Of a stretch of 64,000 bases of DNA, positions 48,442-48,574 are shown piece by piece (position 1 is the first letter of the stretch; each line of letters opens with the position of its first letter). The stretch comes from a virus. Position numbers and translations under genes: made by a program. The notes under the pieces were generated by a model that was given only the letters and a program-made list of their open reading frames with translations, was not told where the DNA came from and did not search any database. The stretch spans positions 50,681 to 114,680 of the IMG/VR virus record IMGVR_UViG_3300035670_000058; one strand, given 5' to 3'.

Positions 48442-48574
48442 TAAGTGTAGTGTCTCGTAACGGCTACTTCGTAAATCAATGGATAGATTATTGTACTCTT
48501 AATACAACTGTTGTCGGTTCGAATCCGACCGAATATCGCCGCAAGGCTAACCCGTTACAAACTAATCTCACTTA
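48442..48574 (+). ncRNA. Y-RNA-like element 4 with tRNA-Lys(CTT)-like module
   Basis: Outer stem TAAGTG (48442-48447) / CACTTA (48569-48574); TAGTGT (48448-48453); inner stem GTAACGG (48457-48463) / CCGTTAC (48552-48558); TACTTC (48465-48470); TAATCT (48563-48568). The insert is a tRNA-like unit in normal order: D arm AATC-8-GATT, anticodon arm TTGTA-CTCTTAA-TACAA, T arm GTCGG-TTCGAAT-CCGAC. The acceptor is reduced to TTCG/CGAA, with no CCA, followed by GCC-GCAA-GGC. A gene finder could call it tRNA-Lys(CTT), but it cannot form a normal acceptor end. Confidence 0.8.

Follow-up and report, generated by a model that had tools for sequence, protein, structure and literature searches.

The window analysed here is a stretch of 64 kb (64,000 nucleotides) and a section of the 114,680-base virus record IMGVR_UViG_3300035670_000058, in which a phage gene for Ro60 is followed downstream by four frames of the Y RNA type with tRNA genes interspersed (Table 1). 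A common plan is evident in all four frames, that is an outer stem, an internal loop which starts with TAGTGT and ends with TAATCT, an inner stem and then the motif (T)TACTTC. The present analysis concerns the fourth frame, element 4, in which a tRNA-Lys(CTT)-like body is embedded. The Ro60 open reading frame (ORF) lies about 1 kb upstream of it, and in its stems of 6 bp (outer) and 7 bp (inner) the 5′ and 3′ ends pair into a basal stem, so that both the neighbouring Ro60 orthologue and the basal stem expected of a Y RNA are found. The Y RNA models of Rfam gave no match in the window at the gathering score and none around the locus at E values up to 1.

The original prediction held that the D, anticodon (TTGTA/TACAA, loop CTCTTAA) and T arms of element 4 are intact and unpermuted, that only TTCG/CGAA is left of the acceptor with no CCA after it, and that the body sits in the same frame as its neighbours with TACTTC running into the acceptor. 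Every one of these details is borne out by the sequence, and the arms are recognised by both ARAGORN and Rfam. ARAGORN calls tRNA-Lys(ctt) at 48465-48537 in linear order, and the Rfam tRNA model (RF00005) gives 46.7 bits against a gathering score of 29, the match being confined to model positions 4-67, so that the first three and last four positions of the model are left out. The 5′ strand of the inner stem and the acceptor strand TTCG are separated by CTAC. Four of the seven acceptor pairs of a functional tRNA are present and no CCA is encoded after them; CCA addition, which requires a free 3′ end, is unlikely. The proposal that a tRNA is present in two topologies at this one locus also holds, since the insert of element 3 is recognised by ARAGORN only once circularly rotated, that is in the permuted order of the YrlA type, and the body of element 4 is linear.

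Table 1. Coordinates of the Ro60 gene, the Y frames, the parts of element 4 and the tRNAs with an inserted helix in other records
Feature	Record	Positions	Strand	Evidence or remark
Phage Ro60 gene (TROVE and vWA_Ro60)	window	45856..47418	+	Pfam TROVE E 5e-34, vWA_Ro60 E 1.2e-7
Element 1, short Y RNA frame	window	47421..47496	+	stem/motif search; fold z -3.2
Element 2, long Y RNA frame without tRNA body	window	47881..48050	+	stem/motif search
Element 3, Y frame with circularly permuted tRNA (YrlA-like)	window	48065..48204	+	ARAGORN tRNA only upon rotation
Element 4, Y frame with unpermuted tRNA-Lys(CTT)-like body	window	48442..48574	+	sequence, ARAGORN, Rfam, stem/motif search
Outer stem, 5′ strand TAAGTG, pairs with 48569-48574	window	48442..48447	+	sequence
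Internal loop, 5′ side TAGTGTCTC, presumed Ro60 site	window	48448..48456	+	TAG[TC] here in 21/25 frames
Inner stem, 5′ strand GTAACGG, pairs with 48552-48558	window	48457..48463	+	stem/motif search
TACTTC Y motif; its TTC belongs to the 5′ acceptor strand	window	48465..48470	+	sequence; recurs in 26-RNA alignment
Acceptor, 5′ strand TTCG	window	48468..48471	+	sequence, 26-RNA alignment
D arm AATC-AATGGATA-GATT	window	48474..48489	+	ARAGORN, Rfam, 26-RNA alignment
Anticodon arm TTGTA-CTCTTAA-TACAA, anticodon CTT 48498-48500	window	48491..48507	+	ARAGORN, Rfam, 26-RNA alignment
T arm GTCGG-TTCGAAT-CCGAC	window	48513..48529	+	ARAGORN, Rfam, 26-RNA alignment
Acceptor, 3′ strand CGAA	window	48530..48533	+	sequence, 26-RNA alignment
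Mini-hairpin GCC-GCAA-GGC, GNRA loop	window	48538..48547	+	sequence; frequent in the 26 RNAs
Inner stem, 3′ strand CCGTTAC	window	48552..48558	+	stem/motif search
Internal loop, 3′ side AAACTAATCT	window	48559..48568	+	TCT end in 22/25 frames
Outer stem, 3′ strand CACTTA	window	48569..48574	+	stem/motif search
Inserted-helix tRNA, crAss-like phage	L070	4832-4974		by eye
Inserted-helix tRNA, crAss-like phage	L070	5087-5224		
Inserted-helix tRNA, crAss-like phage	L072	5038-5178		
Inserted-helix tRNA, halovirus HGTV-1	L036	507-637		
Inserted-helix tRNA	L065	5667-5833		
Inserted-helix tRNA	L069	5960-6090		

The tRNA-like domain of YrlA is circularly permuted and contains no tRNA in linear order, whereas element 4 is unpermuted and hung by its acceptor; of the two, only element 3 needs rotation. 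The known tmRNA keeps a chargeable acceptor and has no decoding anticodon arm; it resembles element 4 in that a tRNA-like part is joined to another RNA module, and in respect of acceptor and anticodon arm element 4 is its reverse. With the tRNAs of RF00005 element 4 shares three arms in order and the elbow nucleotides, but it differs from them by its 4-bp acceptor, the lack of CCA, the two-stem frame and its redundancy with a canonical tRNA-Lys(CTT). YrlA adjoins Ro60, has a basal stem made from its 5′ and 3′ ends, carries a module that mimics D and T arms and has a closed acceptor end (PMC8394870, partial text), and a tRNA-like domain with D and T arms is found in element 4 by ARAGORN, Rfam and alignment. 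According to the same partial text, YrlA mimics the D, T and acceptor arms, DusA and TruB modify it, and Y RNA tethers Ro60 (Rsr) to PNPase. In element 4, by contrast, the anticodon arm is kept in full. TROVE proteins occur in some jumbo phages (PMC7824862, partial text), and that several phages carry YrlA is repeated in a phage paper (PMC7765460, partial text).

Relatives of the phage were collected by Ro60-based scans of IMG/VR, which yielded three related phages, L001/L014 (Ro60 74% identical), L015 (68%) and L016/L017 (60%, two near-identical contigs). A polA-based search gave no further members of this clade, the other five of its seven matches being distant polymerases. In L014 a homologue of element 4 of like design is found at the equivalent place, with identical anticodon loop CTCTTAA and T loop, and among the 18 pairs of the body 8 differ from the window on both sides, 1 differs on one side and none is broken (hand count on the alignment, excluding L015, which MAFFT misaligned among the three clade homologues). 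The bodies are 73.2% identical, which falls inside the range of 63.2-78.5% shown by seven pairs of ordinary tRNAs from these two phages. The L015 homologue has the anticodon TCA, a 5-bp acceptor and a D loop without GG, and the positional homologue in L016 shares its inner stem with L014, but no cloverleaf or tRNA is recognisable in it. The short acceptor and the missing body in L016 are what one would expect of a functionless, dying tRNA gene that had fallen into a Y RNA gene, and phages often rearrange their tRNA genes. The compensatory changes and the conservation at the level of ordinary tRNAs argue against such decay, as does the recurrence of the geometry and the mini-hairpin in distant phages described below, and we regard it as very improbable. 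L014 also contains an additional Y frame with a degenerate tRNA-like stretch (7784-7927, Rfam 34.2 bits) that has no counterpart in the window, and L029, from the phage of L015, encodes at 6339-6412 a tRNA with anticodon CTA (called tRNA-Pyl), possibly an amber suppressor.

Among 181 ARAGORN tRNAs in 26 loci a broken acceptor and a lack of CCA were combined in only a handful. One of this handful, in the gut phage csAssE-Sib, is again an unpermuted, tRNA-Lys(TTT)-like tRNA in a Y frame that the record labels tRNA-Lys. A pattern scan and profile searches then yielded 105 Ro60 loci, of which the best 80 were kept. At a score of at least 14, frames in 106 Ro60 loci (922,835 bases) numbered 161 in sense, 15 in antisense and 9 in shuffled sequence, and at a score of at least 13 the sense frames numbered 180 (antisense 25, shuffled 13). 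In these 180, ARAGORN found a linear tRNA in 34 (26 distinct, 24 loci), a permuted tRNA in another 34 (28 distinct, 25 loci) and neither in 112; linear and permuted forms occur together in 14 loci. Cases are missed by this census, e.g. element 4 of L014, whose trimmed insert ARAGORN does not recognise as a tRNA. Three pattern scans were made for look-alikes of element 4: both matches of the first, which used a wrong spacing, lay inside ORFs and were due to chance, 6 of 7 in the second were chance and the remaining one was an already known contig, and 9 of 10 in the third were ordinary tRNAs with a chance TACTTCG upstream, leaving one real case (L060, the same as L062). One scan of bacterial genomes with the clade Ro60 alignment gave two weak matches, neither with a tRNA, and is no proper test of absence from bacteria.

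The linear tRNAs have two geometries. In one a full acceptor of 6-7 bp comes after TACTTC, in some cases with an ACCA end, while in the other, that of element 4, TACTTC[G/T] itself is the 5′ strand of the acceptor. L080 (1601-1734), L092 (6548-6685), L095 (7506-7639) and L129 (1822-1953) each have, within a Y frame, a tRNA with an acceptor of 6-7 bp that ends in ACCA; they may be recent captures of tRNA genes, or else true precursors. Such relatives, together with the tRNA calls by ARAGORN and Rfam, would also suit an excision of a real tRNA-Lys(CTT) from a Y-RNA-like precursor at element 4. This we consider hardly credible, given just four acceptor pairs, no CCA, an acceptor strand held in common with the Y motif, and anticodons in some relatives that match stop codons. 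Furthermore, a canonical tRNA-Lys(CTT) with CCA is encoded at a separate site in all four clade phages; element 4 is therefore not needed for decoding AAG, and a charged tRNA from it is unlikely.

Twenty-six RNAs of the element 4 geometry, in Ro60 loci of 23 viral contigs, were aligned. Thirteen came from the census (frame plus ARAGORN) or were found by hand and 13 from the best covariance-model matches; for the latter, 25 stretches were inspected (24 covariance-model matches and one L051 stretch by hand), and the 13 with a correctly placed TACTTC-like start were kept and 12 dropped. L014 apart, the Ro60 proteins of these phages are 23-29% identical to that of the window, and by Ro60 identity the 23 contigs form 22 groups at 95% and 9 at 60%, with L109, whose Ro60 was not found by the parser, counted as its own group. 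The acceptor of element 4 had been called destroyed, and indeed just 4 bp are left, but it is not simply destroyed, because across the 26 RNAs, in distant phages, the acceptor is again short and UACUUC or a near variant again forms its 5′ strand (shifted by one base in L079). Pairing is kept in 93.7% of 493 cells of the alignment, with double changes in 14 of 19 pairs, which none of 500 shuffles matched, and RNAalifold recovers the cloverleaf unprompted. U8, A9, U33, U54, U55, C56 and A58 are invariant, and the D loop has GG in all 26. Flanking stems of at least 13 bp enclose the body in 22 of the 26, compared with 1.1% under a null with tighter loop lengths (a looser first null gave 25% at 11 bp) and 4 of 386 other ARAGORN tRNAs; most of the first 13 RNAs had themselves been picked with the frame as a criterion, and of those contributed by the covariance model 10 of 13 have stems of this length. 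The internal-loop motifs are also conserved, TAG[TC] in 21 and the TCT end in 22 of 25 frames. A mini-hairpin comes directly after the acceptor in 21 of the 26 (shuffled 13.6%), with a GNRA loop in 15 (shuffled 0.1%). In element 4 a linker of 4 nt separates the two, whereas other relatives have none, and the 4-5 bp acceptor may stack with the mini-hairpin so as to form a closed pseudo-acceptor, some 7-8 bp in length.

Several points weigh against reading element 4 as a tRNA mimic on a Y RNA handle. The minimum free energy fold of the window sequence taken singly is not a cloverleaf (-29.9 versus -25.7 kcal/mol), no frame is visible in one of the 26 RNAs, L084, and the tRNA body is not indispensable, since it is missing from the positional homologue in L016. 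Moreover, because the 26 RNAs were chosen partly by tRNA likeness, the evidence from their cloverleaf pairing and from the conserved tRNA positions is circular in part; the frame stems, internal-loop motifs and mini-hairpin are features less tied to this selection.

Fifteen different anticodons occur among the 26 RNAs, and TTA (twice) and TCA (once) match stop codons. Since the elbow positions and U33 are kept while the anticodon is free, it is the shape and not the decoding that is conserved. This observation bears on the suggestion that the anticodon arm is a decoy, i.e. a harmless substrate or competitive inhibitor of host anticodon nucleases by which the real tRNA-Lys would be spared. The arm is intact, its loop is identical in L014, the unpermuted case in csAssE-Sib is tRNA-Lys-like too, and Hughes et al. 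suggest that YrlA might competitively inhibit an anticodon nuclease (PMC7790460, partial text). The diversity of anticodons, with TCA in the clade member L015, argues against an anticodon-specific decoy, and RNA ligase (PF09414) and RtcB (PF01139) had no match in the 114.7-kb phage record, which is possibly incomplete; we find the suggestion unlikely. Of the functions offered by the original prediction, a decoy for tRNA-binding enzymes or nucleases or a tether for Ro60, the specific anticodon-nuclease decoy is thus unsupported, as anticodons vary freely among relatives, and element 4 is probably not directed at one particular nuclease. A decoy recognised by tRNA shape alone may exist, and the role as a Ro60 tether is plausible. 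The conserved U8, U54, U55, C56 and A58, and the report of YrlA as a DusA and TruB substrate (PMC8394870, partial text), would also be explained if the tRNA shape merely recruited tRNA-modifying or folding enzymes that stabilise the Y RNA, with no effector involved. This is quite unlikely in our view, as it leaves the closed acceptor and mini-hairpin unexplained; such recruitment is also compatible with an effector module.

Element 4 is accordingly not a unique accident but a recurrent, unpermuted, acceptor-tethered tRNA mimic of phage Y RNAs. The reading that we consider probable is that of a phage Y RNA in which an entire tRNA body, its arms in the normal order, serves as effector module and is attached through the acceptor to a Ro60-binding handle. 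The free anticodons and the separate canonical tRNA-Lys(CTT) with CCA argue for a tRNA mimic tethered to Ro60 and not for a translating tRNA. Bacterial Y RNAs with permuted tRNA-like domains (YrlA) are known, and as far as checked a form that is unpermuted, tethered by its acceptor and equipped with an anticodon arm is new among them; a literature search, with the primary YrlA papers outside its reach, found no recognised description of it, so an earlier description is possible.

A further topology was found in tRNAs with a terminal 7-bp acceptor, in which a Y-type helix ending in TACTTC is inserted after the D arm, before the anticodon side (five sense and no antisense scan matches; Table 1). 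This form is the YrlA circle opened at the acceptor rather than at the Y end, and the record of HGTV-1 labels its copy as tRNA-Asp with an intron. Whether Ro60 handle and tRNA body are exchangeable modules that phages have joined in three or more topologies (permuted, acceptor-hung, and with the Y helix as an "intron") into a broad and mostly misannotated class of Ro60-tRNA chimeras that couples tRNA-binding enzymes to Ro60, is in our judgement evenly balanced. Public records also label Y RNAs as tRNA genes in csAssE-Sib (L051 3121-3193 and 3266-3339, tRNA-Tyr and tRNA-Lys) and in the Xanthomonas phage 10KY502B, where L073 3349-3416, labelled tRNA-Thr, is a permuted Y RNA. A candidate broken tRNA-Asn of a Xanthomonas phage (L050 3294) was rejected, being likewise a permuted Y RNA.

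Elsewhere in the locus, a segment around CTTAGGAAAGGACTAAGTGACGAATCGGAAGTAAGACGATAAAGCC in the 3′ half of element 2 (47970-48030) is near-identical in L014 and L015 and far more conserved than the remainder of that frame, perhaps as an additional effector module. A strongly structured RNA with a 21-nt inverted repeat (48225-48365, fold z -6.5) lies between elements 3 and 4 and has counterparts with GTCATCGCT...GGATGNGCGACGGC-like segments at the equivalent place in L014 and L015.

As to the partner and function of element 4, we infer from the sequence that Ro60 would bind the two-stem handle, and that the acceptor, closed by the Y stem and mini-hairpin, would be out of reach of cleavage, CCA addition and charging. 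A protein specific for the elbow or the L shape of tRNA would then be bound by the tRNA-shaped module, candidates being PNPase, as reported for YrlA, or an enzyme of tRNA processing or modification. The bound protein would thereby be tethered to Ro60 and might steer RNA decay or tRNA handling during infection. The recurrence in many unrelated phages suggests a widespread coupling of Ro60 to the tRNA-handling machinery. If this is true, tRNA mimicry by Y RNAs would be wider and more plastic than the case of YrlA, with a whole tRNA and its anticodon arm attached to a Ro60 handle in many phages, and tRNA finders would annotate such Ro60-handle RNAs as tRNA genes, as in csAssE-Sib. RNAs like element 4 would offer natural examples in which recognition of the tRNA elbow is uncoupled from decoding and charging, and the role of phage Ro60 would become directly testable through the partner of the tRNA-shaped module.
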